From positions 1 through 21,693 of the IMG/VR virus record IMGVR_UViG_3300032092_000297: a stretch of DNA of 21,693 nt. The stretch is one strand, 5' to 3'. Below the pieces are notes generated by a model. The model ran no database searches. It saw only the letters and a program-made list of their open reading frames with translations, and was not told the DNA's origin. Shown one piece after another: positions 8,648-21,676 of this stretch. The position numbers were made by a program, and so were the translations under genes. Position 1 is the stretch's first letter; every line of letters starts with the position of its first letter. The stretch is from a virus.

Positions 8648-9310
8648 TTAGCCAAAATCATCGTCGCCGTCAAAGCCGGGAACGTAATCATCTGAAGGTG
8701 CGCTCACTTTTGTACCACCAGTGGATGGCGGAGAGCCAGCAGACGGTGCTGCGGCGCTACGCGACTTGGGGATGTATACAAGGTCAGCAGGACGATCCAC
8801 CCAAGATGCAATCTTGAAAACAGGCGAGTAATTGGTGGACTTGCGCGCACCTTCGCCAGAGGTGATCGGGGTTGTATCGACCAATTCCACGACAGGAAGC
8901 TTGCCCCTGTTCGCGGACGCGCCGGAAAGGTATTCATCATGCAGGGCGTTTAAGCCGCGCAGGAACGCTTTCGCGGTTGAGGCCAATTCGCGGAGGTCGC
9001 CGCCATTTTCCTTCGACAGCTTAACGAGGATACGGGCTCCGGGACGGTGATCTGGCGATGGGGGCTGTGGGATTGGGTCCCCAATGCGGACAACCGCAAA
9101 GTCAGGCGCGCTGCCAGTGTTAAAGTTAATTGTCCCTGTTTCGATATTCTCGAAATCAAAGATCGCCTTAAACGTGCGCGTGATATCGATCTGATCATTT
9201 TCGCCGTTAACACGGTCACGGCGGAACATGCGTCCAGCCTTCGCGTCAAACTTGATGATCGGGATGATTTCGCCGCTGTCGGCGCTTTCAAAATTAAGAC
9301 CTAATGCCAT
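8648..9310 (-). CDS. Putative phage single-stranded-DNA-binding protein
   Basis: A 220-residue protein with a beta-rich body (about 1-170), then a low-complexity Ser/Ala/Pro/Gly linker (about 184-206) and a strongly acidic end (GFDGDDDFG). A flexible linker plus acidic tail with a near-terminal aromatic is the layout of ssDNA-binding proteins such as T7 gp2.5 and bacterial SSB. I recall related alphaproteobacterial phage proteins with the segment KLPVVELVDTTPI and then a WVDRP motif. The OB fold cannot be confirmed by eye. It is encoded between the nuclease gene and the small DUF3310 pair, which fits a replication or recombination role. An AAAAGG site precedes the start. Confidence 0.55.
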   Translation of the reverse strand: MALGLNFESADSGEIIPIIKFDAKAGRMFRRDRVNGENDQIDITRTFKAIFDFENIETGTINFNTGSAPDFAVVRIGDPIPQPPSPDHRPGARILVKLSKENGGDLRELASTAKAFLRGLNALHDEYLSGASANRGKLPVVELVDTTPITSGEGARKSTNYSPVFKIASWVDRPADLVYIPKSRSAAAPSAGSPPSTGGTKVSAPSDDYVPGFDGDDDFG

Positions 9311-11073: not shown

Positions 11074-11364
11074 ATGTCTGATATCGAATTTGTTTACGGA
11101 GAAGCTGGTTCTGGGAAATCCATTACTCAGGCCTATCAAATCACAGCGGCGGAACTGCGCCAGTACATCGAACGCATTGAGCGTTTGGAAGAAGAGAAAA
11201 AGGGCACGGCTGATGACATTAAGGATGTTTACAGCGAGGCCAAGGGGCAGGGTTATGAAACCAAGATCGTGAAGCAGATCATTCGTCTGCGCCGCATGGA
11301 GAAAGATGCGCGTGACGAAGAAGAGGCGCTTCTCGACACATATAAGGCTGCTTTAGGCCTGTGA
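11074..11364 (+). CDS. GapR-like (DUF2312) DNA-binding protein with P-loop-like N-terminus
   Basis: A 96-residue protein. Residues 23-96 match the GapR/DUF2312 family closely: ITAAELRQYIERIERLEEEK, then DIKDVYSEAKGQGY and later LLDTYKAALGL. GapR is an alphaproteobacterial nucleoid-associated protein that binds overtwisted DNA ahead of polymerases and helps topoisomerases. A phage copy beside replication genes may manage supercoiling of phage DNA. The first 22 residues are unusual: IEFVYGEAGSGKS forms a strand plus a textbook Walker A (GEAGSGKS, 9-16) where GapR normally has a short disordered end. There is no Walker B, so ATP use is doubtful. The stop overlaps the resolvase start (GTGA). Confidence 0.85.
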   Translation: MSDIEFVYGEAGSGKSITQAYQITAAELRQYIERIERLEEEKKGTADDIKDVYSEAKGQGYETKIVKQIIRLRRMEKDARDEEEALLDTYKAALGL

Positions 11365-11828
11365 TTGTGCTTGGTATTGATCCGGGACTTAGCGGCGCAA
11401 TTGCGTTCTATGACACAAAGACGGGTGACGTGACGGTGGTCGATATGCCCACCGTCGAGGTCACGCGCAGTGGCAAAAAGAAGAACGAAGTTAGCCCCCA
11501 ACTTCTTTCGGATGAGATTGCAAAGGGCTTTGCCGACAAGGCATTTGTCGAACGGGTCGGAGCAATGCCGGGACAGGGTGTTACAAGCGTTTTCTCGTTT
11601 GGACGCTCAGTGGGGATTGTGGAGGGCATCCTAGCAGCCTTAAACATCCCCACAACCATTGTGCCACCTCAGACGTGGCAGAAGGGTGTGAACCTGCGTG
11701 GAGGCAAGGATGGATCGCGAGAGCGCGCCATGCAGCTATTCCCACGTCAGGCTTCGCTCTTCGGACGCAAGAAAGATGATGGTCGCTCTGATGCTTCCCT
11801 AATCGCGCATTACGGCGCTAACCAATAA
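11361..11828 (+). CDS. RuvC-like Holliday junction resolvase
   Basis: A 155-residue protein with the RuvC/RNase H-like fold signature. LGIDPGLSGA supplies D7, FVERVGAMPGQG supplies E64, and RKKDDGRSDASLIAHYG supplies the paired C-terminal acids (D139/D140 and D144). It would cut branched DNA during phage replication, recombination or before packaging. The start is a GTG forming a four-base overlap with the stop of the GapR-like gene. The SFGRSVGIVEG and VPPQTWQKG segments are also typical of phage RuvC-like proteins. The length matches the family. Confidence 0.88.
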   Translation: MIVLGIDPGLSGAIAFYDTKTGDVTVVDMPTVEVTRSGKKKNEVSPQLLSDEIAKGFADKAFVERVGAMPGQGVTSVFSFGRSVGIVEGILAALNIPTTIVPPQTWQKGVNLRGGKDGSRERAMQLFPRQASLFGRKKDDGRSDASLIAHYGANQ

Positions 11829-11948: not shown

Positions 11949-14069
11949 ATGGCCCAAATATCATTCGATGAAGATTTTGCGGGACCATCTGATTATGCGC
12001 TGCTGTACCGTCAGCTTCGCCTTCAGGTTGTCCCCTCACTGCCGCCATCCAATACAGGATCGTGGAAGCGCCCTGCCATCAAGTGGCGGGAGCATGAAGA
12101 TGTTTTAACAGCGCAGGATGTGTTCGACCAATGGTATGGCCATCAGGGTGAGTACCGCACACGTCAGAACATGGGCCTGATAACAGGCAAGGCATCCGGC
12201 AATGTCTGGGTGCTGGATCTCGACACGCACAAAAACCCACAGGCAAACGAGTGGCTGAAGGGCCTGCTCGACCTTTGGAACGATGGCGCGCCTCTTGTCT
12301 CACCGACACAGCGCACAGGCGGTGGCGGCATCCAAATCCTTTTCCGTTCGCCTGAGGGTTGGATACCACCGACGATCAAGACATCGATTGGCGTGGACAT
12401 TCGGGGTCAGGGTGGCTTTGCTGTCCTGCCGCCAAGCATGCACGAAAGCGGCGTCAATTATGCTTGGATCAAAGGCTATGAACCTTGGCTGGTCGATATT
12501 AAGACAGCGCCGTCATGGCTGACTGATGCGATTGACGATCTTGCAAGCCATTTCACGTCTGTCGGGCCAAGTGAGCGCACGGGCTCACCCGACACCGCGA
12601 TAAACCCATTTGGGCAGATCGTGGATGGTCGCGAAGATTATATGCGGAACCTGATATGGGCGAAGGTTGTCGACCATCGACGCGAGATCCATGACGCGCC
12701 GTTCTTTAGCGAAGCTGAGGCGCAGCAATGGATGGAAGATGCGTTTGCCCAGTATGAGCAAACCGTCAAGTCGCGCCTTGTCGAGGCTGGCGTAAGCAAT
12801 GCCGAATTGCTTGAACGCGAAGGCAGGGGCATATCTGAATTCACTAAGAAATGGTTAATAGCCATGTCGAAGTGGCACACTGACGTAAAGATTGCGGCTG
12901 AAGTGCCAAAAAAAGTCCGTGGGGATGTCAAGACACCTGAGCCAGCACTGCAAATGGTTCAGGGTGATGATGGCGTTTGGCGTCCCCAGTTTGAAGCCTT
13001 CCCGCTTTTGAGCGTCACAATGATTCGCACCCTTCCAGATCCAAAGTACCTGATTGAAGGCCTTGTGATCGAAAATGGTCTGGGCTTTTTCTACGGCCCT
13101 CCGGGATGTGGTAAGTCCTTTATCACTATCGGCATGGCTCTTTCCATTGCCGCTGGCTTGGAAGAATGGTGGGGGTACAAGATCAATAAAAGCGGACCCA
13201 TGATCTATATTTCGTCTGAGGGCGTGAGCGACCTTAAATTTCGTATCGCTGCATGGGAGCAGGCAACGGGTATCAGTGCTGCGGACATTCCGTTTTACCT
13301 GATCCACGTCCCCATCAACTTTATGGATGACAAGGAAATTGAACGCCTGATCCTGACCATTCAGTATTCGGATATGCTGATGGGCGAAGTGCCTGTGGGC
13401 ATCGTTGTTGACACGGTAAGCCGCTCACTTCCCGGAGCAGACGAGAATTTGCAGAAGGATATGACGCTGTTCATCAAGGCCTGTGACAAGATCCGGCTTG
13501 CATTTGATTGCACCGTTATGGGCGTCCACCACACAAGTCGCGCAGGCAATTTGCGTGGATCGACCGTGTTTGATGGCGCTGCCGATTTTCTTTTCCGGAT
13601 CAGTCGCGAGGAGGGCGTCATGATTGGCGAATTCAACGCGAAGAAGATTAAGTCTGCAACTGACGGCTGGACGAAGGCCTTTAAGCTTCGCGAGGTCCTG
13701 TGCGGCGATATTGCAGGTAATTCTAGCCTGTACGCAGAGCCAGCGTTGCCTGAAGAGGTGGTTGTCGAAGATGAGTGGCCAAGTAAGCCAGTCTGCCAAG
13801 ATATTCTTAGCGCCATGTCGAAGGCGTGGGATGCAGGCAAGCCTTGGTCGACGCAGCCAAACACAAGGCGCGATGGTCGTTATGCTCCCATGCTGATGAC
13901 GCGATATGAGGTCGAGGAAAAGATGGCTGCAAAGATGATCGATACATGGCTGCGTAATGGCGTCATTGAAATTGATCTTTGCGATGCGCGCACCAAGACC
14001 AAGGGCATAAAAGTCATGAGCCACCTTCAGGACGCGCCGTCACGATATGGATCATATTATGCAAACTAA
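11949..14069 (+). CDS. Primase/polymerase (AEP) fused to RecA-like helicase/ATPase
   Basis: A 706-residue replication protein. The N-terminal ~200 residues form an archaeo-eukaryotic primase (prim-pol) domain: VLDLDTH gives metal ligands D90 and D92, TGGGGIQILF is the second motif, and GVDIRGQGGFAVLPPS gives D150. The usual His of the second motif is replaced by Q129. After a linker (about 205-350), a RepA/DnaB-like RecA-fold ATPase follows with Walker A GPPGCGKS (383-390), Walker B VGIVVDT (D488) and a VMGVHHTSR sensor (about 523-531). It should prime and unwind the phage DNA. The C-terminal ~110 residues may bind partners. The ATG has only a weak AGAGAG site. No DNA polymerase is seen in the window, so the partner is elsewhere or from the host. 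Confidence 0.88.
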   Translation: MAQISFDEDFAGPSDYALLYRQLRLQVVPSLPPSNTGSWKRPAIKWREHEDVLTAQDVFDQWYGHQGEYRTRQNMGLITGKASGNVWVLDLDTHKNPQANEWLKGLLDLWNDGAPLVSPTQRTGGGGIQILFRSPEGWIPPTIKTSIGVDIRGQGGFAVLPPSMHESGVNYAWIKGYEPWLVDIKTAPSWLTDAIDDLASHFTSVGPSERTGSPDTAINPFGQIVDGREDYMRNLIWAKVVDHRREIHDAPFFSEAEAQQWMEDAFAQYEQTVKSRLVEAGVSNAELLEREGRGISEFTKKWLIAMSKWHTDVKIAAEVPKKVRGDVKTPEPALQMVQGDDGVWRPQFEAFPLLSVTMIRTLPDPKYLIEGLVIENGLGFFYGPPGCGKSFITIGMALSIAAGLEEWWGYKINKSGPMIYISSEGVSDLKFRIAAWEQATGISAADIPFYLIHVPINFMDDKEIERLILTIQYSDMLMGEVPVGIVVDTVSRSLPGADENLQKDMTLFIKACDKIRLAFDCTVMGVHHTSRAGNLRGSTVFDGAADFLFRISREEGVMIGEFNAKKIKSATDGWTKAFKLREVLCGDIAGNSSLYAEPALPEEVVVEDEWPSKPVCQDILSAMSKAWDAGKPWSTQPNTRRDGRYAPMLMTRYEVEEKMAAKMIDTWLRNGVIEIDLCDARTKTKGIKVMSHLQDAPSRYGSYYAN

Positions 14070-15696: not shown

Positions 15697-15826
15697 GCAG
15701 GAACGTCTCGCAGCACTGGAAGCTGCGCTCAGAGAGATTGCCAACATCGTGAATGTTGACAACAACCCAACCTTGGCTGGGGCAATTACGATAGCGACCA
15801 AGGCAATTGAAAGGATATGCACATGA
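15671..15826 (+). CDS. Small helical protein of unknown function (51 aa)
   Basis: A 51-codon gene. The ATG at 15671, inside the preceding gene, has an AGGAG site 5 bp upstream and is preferred to the in-frame ATG at 15689. The product has a helix (ERLAALEAALREIANIVNV), a short turn (DNNPTLAGAIT) and a second helix (IATKAIERICT). I recall similar short ALEAALREI... proteins in other phages. Its stop overlaps the next start (ATGA). Confidence 0.6.
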   Translation: MAWPAKMNEQERLAALEAALREIANIVNVDNNPTLAGAITIATKAIERICT

Positions 15827-16176
15827 ACTGGAAAGACATACTGCTCCCTTGGGGCACACTTAAAGAAATCCAAAAGGAAATTACAAGCCACATTCAGCGC
15901 GGCGTTATGCAGGCAAAAAAGATTGCTGGTCTGGAGCAGGACATAGCCGTCCAGAAGGATCGCATCAAACATCTGCTGAAACAGAATAATGATTTGGACC
16001 TTCAGCTAAGGTCAGCGCGCCTTGCCAATACCATCTTGAAGGAAGATTTGAGGAAGCTATCTGAGGTTGTCGAAGCCCTTCCAAAGCGAAATGAGAAGGG
16101 TCGATTTACGCCCAAAAATCCTGCGGAAGCTCTGCGGAAGCTGAAGAAGAGCCTTCCGCAAAAAGAAGCTAAGTGA
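15823..16176 (+). CDS. Coiled-coil protein whose 3' end carries iteron-like repeats
   Basis: A 117-residue protein. The ATG at 15823 overlaps the previous stop (ATGA) and lies 8 bp after GAAAGGA; the ATG two codons earlier is too close to that site. Residues ~12-90 form a long coiled coil (KEIQKEITSHIQRGVMQAKK, then LEQDIAVQKDRIKHLL). A basic tail follows (LPKRNEKGRFTPK, AEALRKLKKSL). The tail is encoded by the first copies of the TGCGGAAG repeat that fills the non-coding region downstream. The protein could bind that DNA, as origin-binding proteins often bind sites in or beside their own gene, but this is speculation. Confidence 0.7.
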   Translation: MNWKDILLPWGTLKEIQKEITSHIQRGVMQAKKIAGLEQDIAVQKDRIKHLLKQNNDLDLQLRSARLANTILKEDLRKLSEVVEALPKRNEKGRFTPKNPAEALRKLKKSLPQKEAK

Positions 16177-16331
16177 TTGAAAAGCATTGCGGAGGCTAAT
16201 ATGCGGAAGTCTTGCGGAAGCTGCGGAAGCGACTTCCGTACATATTGAAAACAAAAGATAAATTTGCGGAAGCGTAATTTGCGGAAGTCCCCCATATTAC
16301 GTTAGTAATAATGGAAGTTTGCGCTTCCGCA
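16122..16331. repeat. Cluster of TGCGGAAG repeats on both strands (iteron-like)
   Basis: Perfect TGCGGAAG copies lie at 16122, 16133, 16202, 16213, 16222, 16265 and 16280, and its complement CTTCCGCA at 16153 and 16324. One-base variants lie at 16188, 16233 and 16371 (the last just outside the core). Several neighbours are spaced 9-11 bp apart, about one DNA turn, which fits a protein binding along one face. AT-rich DNA (aacaaaagataaattt, 16249-16265) and a tattac-gtta-gtaata inverted repeat (16295-16310) sit within the cluster. Iterons beside an AT-rich segment are the layout of many replication origins. Confidence 0.75.
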
Positions 16332-16507
16332 AAACTTCTGTTTTTAGATGTAGGCGCACTAAGCGGAAAGCCTCCGCATTCGCTGCGGCAGTCCGCAAGT
16401 GCAAAGGGATATGCTGGTGTGCTTGTGATGCTGGTTTGCCCGTGTGCTGATTGGATGGCCGGGTGGGTGCGTGGGCTGCGGATTGGCCGATTAGATATGG
16501 GGTAGTT
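16177..16507. other. 331-bp non-coding region, possible replication origin
   Basis: No gene with a credible ribosome binding site is found on either strand; the open frames here have no good start. The left two thirds hold the TGCGGAAG repeats. The right third has looser GCGGA/TCCGC variants (16363-16396), then a G- and T-rich run (ggatggccgggtgggtgcgt area, about 16454-16480) leading to the next gene. A weak promoter-like TTGCGG...TAGTAA pair (16279-16308) is not convincing. Confidence 0.55.
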
Positions 16508-16906
16508 ATGGCGAGAAGGAAACCAAGGGAAGGTGAGGTCGGTGTCCAGTATGGAGGTCGAAGGTACCTTCGCACTGATGGCCAGACACTGATTGCCCGA
16601 AAGGATAAGTGGCATCTCGTTATCGTGCCAAGCTGGTGCAAGGATGGGTGGTTAAGCTTTAAGCTTTACCTTGATCAGAAGGCGACCAAGAACCTGTTTC
16701 AGGTTGGGGTCTCTGTCGATGGCCCAGCAAGAAACAAAAGCACCGCTATTCTCAAAAAAGATTATCCAGATATTCTGGAATGGGTTGTGCATCAGGCTGA
16801 CCTTTATAGGCGCGAAATGCTGTCTCACCTTCCGGAAGCTGGTCAGGTAATTATTTATAAAAAAGGACGGTGGACTTATGGCGTACAAGCCAAAGACAAA
16901 GGGTAG
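16508..16906 (+). CDS. Protein of unknown function (132 aa)
   Basis: A 132-residue basic protein. The ATG at 16508 follows GGGGTAGTT; an in-frame ATG at 16451 lies in the repeat-region flank without a good site. The sequence begins MARRKPREGEVGVQYGGRRY and appears mixed alpha/beta with several Trp and many Lys. No family is recognised. It overlaps the next gene by 29 bp, so the two are probably co-translated. Its position just after the repeat region makes replication or regulation plausible, without direct evidence. Confidence 0.65.
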   Translation: MARRKPREGEVGVQYGGRRYLRTDGQTLIARKDKWHLVIVPSWCKDGWLSFKLYLDQKATKNLFQVGVSVDGPARNKSTAILKKDYPDILEWVVHQADLYRREMLSHLPEAGQVIIYKKGRWTYGVQAKDKG

Positions 16907-17531
16907 AGCAAAGCCAAAGGTCGACAAGACGGGTTGGCCACCTTCAGCAATAGGATCTGCGCCTTGGCAGACATCTTACGGCCTTGCATTATCAGGCATG
17001 GAACTGATCGACGAAATGAAGATGGTTGCCAGCGAGGTCGAAGATCGTTGGGGCGTTGGAAGGTTGCGGATGCTTGTGCCTGTCCCCCTGCGCGAGAAAT
17101 TTGATAGGCAAAGGTACCTGACCAATCAGGCTATCTGGCACGGGGATCTGGAACAGGTCAGGGAGCATACAGGCAAGATGATCTTGGCTTATAGGAAGCT
17201 GGATGAAGTTGCATGTGCCTCAGGAGCCTCTAGGAAGCCTGTAGAGCAATGGGAATGCGTTTTGGGTAGTGGGATGGTGCTTGTGCTTGTGAAGGACGCA
17301 CAGGACGCTCTAAACGTCCAGAAGGATGGTCGTAAGGTTGTTGTGTGGACGATGGAAGAAATTGCGATGATCGTCGAAGAGCATACGGCTGTCCTGCATG
17401 CCAAGCAGCTATTTGAAGGCGCTGAGGTCCTGAAGATCGAAAGGTCAATAAAAGACCCGCTAGATGCCTTTGCGACAAGTCTAGCGGGTCTGGATGATCG
17501 TATCGCTGATATTCCCATGCTTATGGGATAG
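16878..17531 (+). CDS. Protein of unknown function (217 aa)
   Basis: A 217-residue protein with a basic Pro/Lys-rich start (MAYKPKTKGRAKPKVDKTGW) and a mostly helical body (VASEVEDRWGVGRL; EKFDRQRYLTNQAIWHGDLE; WTMEEIAMIVEEHTAVLHAK). No catalytic motif is seen. AAGGACGGTGG precedes the ATG, which lies inside the upstream gene. The last ~11 bp overlap the stop of the convergent HTH gene. A perfect 12-bp inverted repeat that acts as a terminator for the opposite strand is embedded in its codons ~192-205. Confidence 0.7.
   Translation: MAYKPKTKGRAKPKVDKTGWPPSAIGSAPWQTSYGLALSGMELIDEMKMVASEVEDRWGVGRLRMLVPVPLREKFDRQRYLTNQAIWHGDLEQVREHTGKMILAYRKLDEVACASGASRKPVEQWECVLGSGMVLVLVKDAQDALNVQKDGRKVVVWTMEEIAMIVEEHTAVLHAKQLFEGAEVLKIERSIKDPLDAFATSLAGLDDRIADIPMLMG
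17444..17491 (-). terminator. Strong leftward terminator inside a convergent coding sequence
   Basis: A perfect 12-bp inverted repeat (agacccgctaga / tctagcgggtct, 17453-17464 and 17480-17491) with a 15-nt loop is followed on the minus strand by ttttatt. It begins about 30 bp after the stop of the leftward HTH gene, where an operon terminator is expected. It lies wholly within the coding sequence of the rightward 217-aa gene. The plus-strand side has no T-run. Confidence 0.8.
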
Positions 17532-21479: not shown

Positions 21480-21676
21480 GCTACTAACTCCCCTTTGGTG
21501 TAGACGGTGACGTTGACACCTTCTTCCGGCCAGCGGTAATCGACGGTGCGATAAGAGCCGTTGACCTCCTTGCTCAGTGCGGAAGCTGCCCAGCCAGCTT
21601 CGGTGGCGGTAAAGAATTTAGCTACCCTGTGCCATTCATGGGTGGTTGGGCATTTGGCTTCGAGTTCTACGTTCAT
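21476..21676 (-). CDS. Small protein, paralogue of the 65-aa protein (66 aa)
   Basis: A 66-residue protein starting MNVELEAKCPTTHEWHRVAK. It aligns without gaps over ~54 residues to the 65-aa protein two genes downstream, sharing H.W..VA.F, YR.VD.RW and a GE.V ending. The ATG follows GGGGATAT. It is the most upstream leftward gene in the window; its promoter lies outside. The function is unknown. Confidence 0.65.
   Translation of the reverse strand: MNVELEAKCPTTHEWHRVAKFFTATEAGWAASALSKEVNGSYRTVDYRWPEEGVNVTVYTKGELVA

Follow-up and report, generated by a model that had tools for sequence, protein, structure and literature searches.

In phage lambda the iterons lie within the initiator gene, and the initiator O is not a helicase. 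In phage P4 (ori/crr), primase, helicase and C-terminal iteron binding are combined in one protein, alpha, and in the RSF1010 system (RepA/RepB'/RepC, oriV) a RepA-type helicase and a dedicated primase act at iterons and hairpins. The helicases SaPI Rep and SCCmec Cch2 of Staphylococcus recognise, by means of their C-terminal domain, a short-repeat origin located downstream of their own gene (PMC7581432). For the archaeo-eukaryotic primases of the PrimQH type, which are associated with a P-loop ATPase (the RepA type included), a C-terminal winged helix has been suggested to recognise origins (PMC5862659).

The window analysed here, that is, the whole stretch of 21,693 nucleotides of viral DNA, contains a cluster of short repeats that, as judged from sequence comparison, is very probably the replication start of a virus whose hosts are bacteria from soil and water. 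In the reading preferred here, to which a probability of about 0.84 is given, the array would be the origin and the helicase-primase would be its self-recruiting initiator, binding the iterons and, with IHF-bent spacers, opening the DNA and priming synthesis. An origin was also the leading reading of an earlier note on this DNA, and most of the comparative tests support it, namely the linkage to the helicase, the covariation of the repeated word, the phased iterons, the IHF-like spacers and the 3' palindromes. The features considered are the following:

11074-11364, + strand: GapR-like DNA-binding protein (Pfam GapR_DNA-bd, E 7.8e-33), in the same gene block as the helicase
11361-11828, + strand: RuvC-like Holliday junction resolvase (PHROG 1770), adjoining the helicase gene
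11949-14069, + strand: Prim-Pol and AAA_25 (RepA-like) helicase, 706 aa (Pfam Prim-Pol, AAA_25)
about 13713-14066, + strand: predicted C-terminal winged-helix domain (CTD) of the helicase (AlphaFold2 model)
15817-16176, + strand: 119-aa coiled-coil ORF, its 3' end overlapping the first iterons
16122-16331, both strands: iteron array, candidate replication origin core, with nine exact copies of TGCGGAAG plus one-base variants
16170-16188, + strand: first conserved AT-rich spacer, TAAGTGATTGAAAAGCATT, with an IHF consensus (one mismatch) on the minus strand at 16170
16240-16259, + strand: second AT-rich spacer, ACATATTGAAAACAAAAGAT, separating iteron groups two and three and at the same place in relatives
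16295-16310, both strands: palindrome TATTAC-GTTA-GTAATA, 3' of the last direct iteron
16314-16338, both strands: second stem-loop, including the last inverted iteron (16324-16331)
16508-16906, + strand: Y132, with longer homologues whose C-terminal domain resembles that of the helicase
16878-17531, + strand: X217, a conserved protein encoded immediately downstream, many members of which have an SSB-like acidic tail

The window system would resemble P4 alpha in the union of primase, helicase and C-terminal iteron binding in one protein, although the helicase family is different. With lambda and other phage iteron origins it shares iterons and AT-rich DNA, but not the non-helicase initiator of lambda. 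In RSF1010 the iteron binder is a separate protein, RepC, whereas in the window the proposed iteron-binding domain seems to be part of the helicase itself. The likeness to SaPI Rep/Cch2 would comprise a helicase initiator, recognition by the CTD, a repeat origin downstream and a primase that is fused or encoded nearby (PMC7581432). However, those helicases are of the DUF927 or Primase_Cterm/D5 type and that of the window is an AAA_25 protein with Prim-Pol; the window system also differs in its IHF-like spacers and its occurrence in tailed phages whose links are mostly to alphaproteobacteria. PrimQH proteins are similar in domain layout (primase, P-loop ATPase, C-terminal winged helix), but their function at origins is a suggestion (PMC5862659), whereas cognate, covarying arrays were found here. 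The window system has not been filed under the SaPI Rep/Cch2 or PrimQH families because the helicase type differs. The array family is widespread, of a known kind of origin and apparently undescribed; no description of these arrays was found in the open-access literature.

Exact copies of TGCGGAAG start at 16122, 16133, 16153 (minus strand), 16202, 16213, 16222, 16265, 16280 and 16324 (minus strand), seven on the plus strand and two on the minus strand. The earlier note had described at least nine perfect copies of an 8-bp word on both strands within about 210 bp, and the exact matches at 16122-16331 agree with it. Its one-base variants are present at 16188 (TGCGGAGG) and 16233-16240 (CTTCCGTA), its spacing of 9-11 bp is found as spacings of 11, 11 and 9 bp, and the palindrome that it placed among the repeats is the one at 16295-16310. 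It was also right that the array starts inside the 3' end of the coiled-coil gene; from there the array runs on into the gap ending at Y132 (16508). The count of the word, proposed there as a check, gave 10 copies in the window versus 1.06 expected, nine of them in the array and a sole copy outside it at 21578. None of 100 shuffles reached 10 copies, and no 8-mer formed a cluster of more than 4 copies per 350 bp when the window was dinucleotide-shuffled 200 times. The array consists, as in iteron-type origins, of multiple short direct repeats in helical phase.

In a 55-kb sister contig, TGCGGAAG occurs 12 times, with 9 of the 12 copies inside the equivalent array. All iteron bases are identical between the window and the sister phage (72/72), against 74% identity for the coiled-coil coding sequence immediately 5' of them. 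That the array serves for recombination or attachment, or is a functionless degenerate repeat, is extremely improbable, even though short palindromes and repeats are present, since the iterons are unchanged between sister phages and the array is strongly conserved across diverse phages; in addition, no integrase gene was identified beside the array in the window. An Rfam search yielded no match, and no near DNA matches to the window were found among phage records.

Searches with X217 and the helicase recovered about 110 phage contigs, and X217 also recovered 32 bacterial genome contigs, mostly alphaproteobacterial. Comparison of these loci established the conserved place of the array: as the earlier note had asked of related phages, it lies at the same position, between the Prim-Pol/AAA_25 helicase gene and X217, in most of about 100 phage and prophage loci. 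Non-redundant X217 loci of 6 kb or more numbered 62; in 50 of them the densest cluster of any 8-mer was located 1.3 kb or less upstream of X217, versus 5.8 expected from length, and 27 of the 32 bacterial genome contigs gave the same picture. About one in five X217 loci had no clear exact-word array as its densest cluster, which counts against the origin reading. The array is linked across relatives to the gene of the proposed replication initiator, as iteron-type origins are. The architecture is conserved as well. In most arrays of the main group it comprises about three phased iterons, the AT-rich spacer TAAGTCATTGAAATCATT, about three iterons, this spacer again, two iterons and a palindrome. 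Runs of C and G frequently border the palindrome, and in many cases a second hairpin with an inverted iteron comes after it. Adjacent iterons on the same strand show a spacing peak at 9-11 bp across the family. The commonest word is GCGGAAGT/GCGGAGGT, and other groups have CGATACGA, GCACAGAA, CTGTCCCC, GCGAAAGT, GTGGCGCA and others.

The family form of the spacer is TAAGTCATTGAAATCATT. One of its 8-mers is found in 19 of 42 non-redundant arrays; the maximum was 5 in shuffles and 7 in control stretches. IHF-consensus matches with at most one mismatch number 48 across the family arrays, versus 9 expected; in the window, the second spacer, ACATATTGAAAACAAAAGAT, has no such match. Arrays with different iteron words have the spacer in common, so the protein that binds it is probably other than the iteron binder. 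When the spacer was used as bait in viral contigs, arrays were found around 28 of 119 hits, versus 1.3% of control stretches, and 24 of the 28 were accompanied by the helicase or X217; the modules recovered in this way carry several different iteron words. The 18-bp bait also matches unrelated AT-rich phages, probably by chance. It occurs in very large phage contigs (L158 and L191, a viral contig of 328 kb; L153, 201 kb), and its surroundings there showed neither a helicase hit nor an array; these matches are probably chance in AT-rich DNA too.

Different palindromes occupy the place of the window palindrome in many relatives. Folding of 16286-16345 as single-stranded DNA, which includes the two window hairpins, gave a z of -4.9, and across the family a hairpin at the 3' end has only moderate support (p ≤0.05 in 45% of arrays). 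The second stem-loop is also terminator-like because of the T-rich tail that follows it, and it could be a transcription terminator, which would count against the origin reading.

The word that is repeated changes together with one half of the helicase. Among 48 loci, word similarity correlated with the similarity of the AAA domain (r 0.70) and of the CTD (r 0.68), versus r 0.30 for X217. In a joint regression of the same loci, CTD and AAA contributed and the X217 coefficient was -0.14 (p 0.85). Mosaic loci show the same more clearly. The helicases of L115 and L118 agree at 98-100% in most of their first 300 residues (the Prim-Pol part), their AAA and CTD parts are about 20% identical, their X217 proteins are 87% identical, and their words, AATGGCGC and CGTTCCAC, are unrelated. 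The recombination boundary in this pair is sharp and falls within the helicase coding sequence, 3' of the Prim-Pol part. In L117, L030 and L036, most of Prim-Pol is common at about 75-90%, and the AAA domain, the CTD and the word are not. These comparisons show the word changing with the AAA and winged-helix half and not with X217 or Prim-Pol, which indicates that the repeats would be read by the C-terminal docking domain of the virus's own primase-helicase.

X217 was considered as the determinant of iteron specificity and rejected, because X217 proteins about 87% identical adjoin unrelated words (L010/L031; L115/L118/L027). From the proteins that the earlier note had listed as possible binders, the primase-helicase was consistent with these comparisons, and the 217-aa protein was not.

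The part of the helicase that decides iteron specificity would be the CTD, as favoured by the covariation, the mosaics and the predicted fold; since AAA and CTD similarities are correlated, the two are told apart by few cases, namely L117, with a window-type CTD, a divergent AAA domain and a word of the GCGGAG type, and L036 with L121, which have the AAA domain in common and different CTDs and words. The AlphaFold2 model of the window CTD is a winged helix with a mean pLDDT of 69, and the structural neighbours listed are mostly winged-helix proteins, the best one being 6lui (Z 8.0, rmsd 2.5 over 70 residues); the MCM C-terminus 2ma3 is also among them (Z 6.9, rmsd 2.7 over 65).

The Prim-Pol/AAA_25 protein would bind the TGCGGAAG iterons through this winged helix, and several copies of it would align along one face of the DNA, since successive iterons are separated by roughly a helical turn. 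The conserved spacers would be bound by a DNA-bending protein of the host, probably IHF or similar, which would fold the array. The strands may then open at the adjacent AT-rich DNA or at the 3' palindromes, where the helicase ring would load before its own Prim-Pol domain primes synthesis. The place and architecture of the array, the covariation and the winged-helix model come from computation; we infer the four steps of iteron binding, bending by IHF, opening and priming.

In the window the helicase and the array are about 2 kb apart, a distance that counts against the proposal. The genes of the replication block upstream of the array (GapR-like protein, RuvC-like resolvase and helicase-primase) are on the same strand. 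In alphaproteobacteria GapR organises the chromosome; a phage-encoded protein resembling it is found here beside RuvC and the helicase.

The array was also found directly 3' of the helicase gene in phages without an X217 gene, with 12 copies in Rhizobium phage RHph_N65, 9 in EBPR siphovirus 5 and 13 in Rhizobium phage 16-3, which implies that the array belongs to the helicase. The first two, in whose examined stretch X217 was not seen, were the only INPHARED matches to the window CTD and their arrays are of the GCGGA type. Phage 16-3 has a different CTD; its copies, of GCGTGACA, and a perfect IHF-consensus match at the same place were read by eye. The origin position downstream of the helicase gene is accordingly direct in these three phages and in the Caenibius plasmid p1 described below.

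These phages bear on the most serious rival, an operator in which the repeats would be repressor or activator sites (possibly for X217, Y132 or the helicase) controlling the Y132-X217 operon. The position of the array just upstream of Y132-X217 or of X217, together with the helicase-like C-terminal domain of some Y homologues, would suit such a role. It is nevertheless unlikely, because loci lacking X217 still have the array 3' of the helicase, the genes after the RHph_N65 array point the opposite way and leave it without a co-directed downstream gene, nearly identical X217 proteins adjoin unrelated words, and the array region has no sigma-70-type promoter match.

Packaging has also been considered, the array then being a pac/cos site to which the small terminase binds together with IHF, since the cosB of lambda likewise joins repeats with an IHF site and several relatives have terminase genes a few kb 3' of X217. 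The word, however, tracks the helicase, and the array is not adjacent to a small terminase gene: separate Sf6-type small terminase genes are kilobases away in relatives and terL is about 8.7 kb from the array in RHph_N65, these distances resting on comparisons other than the PHROG 2 large-terminase search, which found 1 of 10 records. A packaging site is consequently very unlikely.

Plasmid p1 of Caenibius sp. WL (NZ_CP081845.1) is a circular 38-kb phage-plasmid with 12 copies of TGCGGAAG between the helicase and X217. Its genes include those for capsid, terminase, integrase and a HicA/HicB pair along with the same replication module; on account of the integrase gene it could be a prophage that has excised. 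Its annotation includes no replication or partition gene of plasmid type. This one circular relative is what would favour reading the array as a site for partition (parS-like) or incompatibility in a phage-plasmid, but partition genes were not identified in the window either, the array is tied to the helicase, and incompatibility may be a secondary effect of helicase-associated iterons, so that such a site is highly improbable.

GC skew, another check named in the earlier note, was indecisive. The Caenibius p1 array is about 1 kb from the GC-skew minimum, in agreement with an origin, but the array is not marked by GC skew in RHph_N65, and in the window the skew follows gene direction, which confounds it.

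Returning to the origin reading, it may be proposed tentatively that the AAA and winged-helix half and the iteron array together make up an exchangeable cassette for origin specificity, which is exchanged as a unit between a constant Prim-Pol and a constant X217, the latter, with its SSB-like tail, being a new replication accessory protein at these origins. Such swapping would cause related phages to fall into replication-compatibility groups. Origins are known for only a minority of tailed phages, and this one array suggests a rule for its whole family: find the Prim-Pol/AAA_25 helicase and read the origin just downstream. The natural swaps turn the winged-helix suggestion (PMC5862659) into a testable code from domain to DNA word. 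Candidate minimal replicons for alphaproteobacteria are also defined, plus the undescribed associated protein X217, in a large group of uncharacterised phages mostly linked to these bacteria.

The X217 family matched no Pfam, PHROGs or PDB family, and comparison of its fold with the PDB, in effect a test of the helical part only, gave no meaningful match. Its identification as a small terminase was rejected because separate Sf6-type terminases are present, yet one structural relative is so named; a role as replication accessory protein is a guess. Among 53 distinct tails of the family, 29 have a terminal PF or PY, preceded by acidic residues in nearly all cases, and so resemble the SSB tip DDDIPF; the X217 of the window itself lacks such an ending. 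In the window, the genes 3' of X217 have the opposite direction.

Long forms of Y132 (about 200 aa; L096, L088, L077, L098 and others) have a C-terminal domain that resembles the helicase winged helix, and in several loci the helicase profile matched the Y homologue itself. A 220-aa protein encoded at 8648-9310 (minus strand) has an acidic tail ending in DGDDDFG and is possibly an ssDNA-binding protein.
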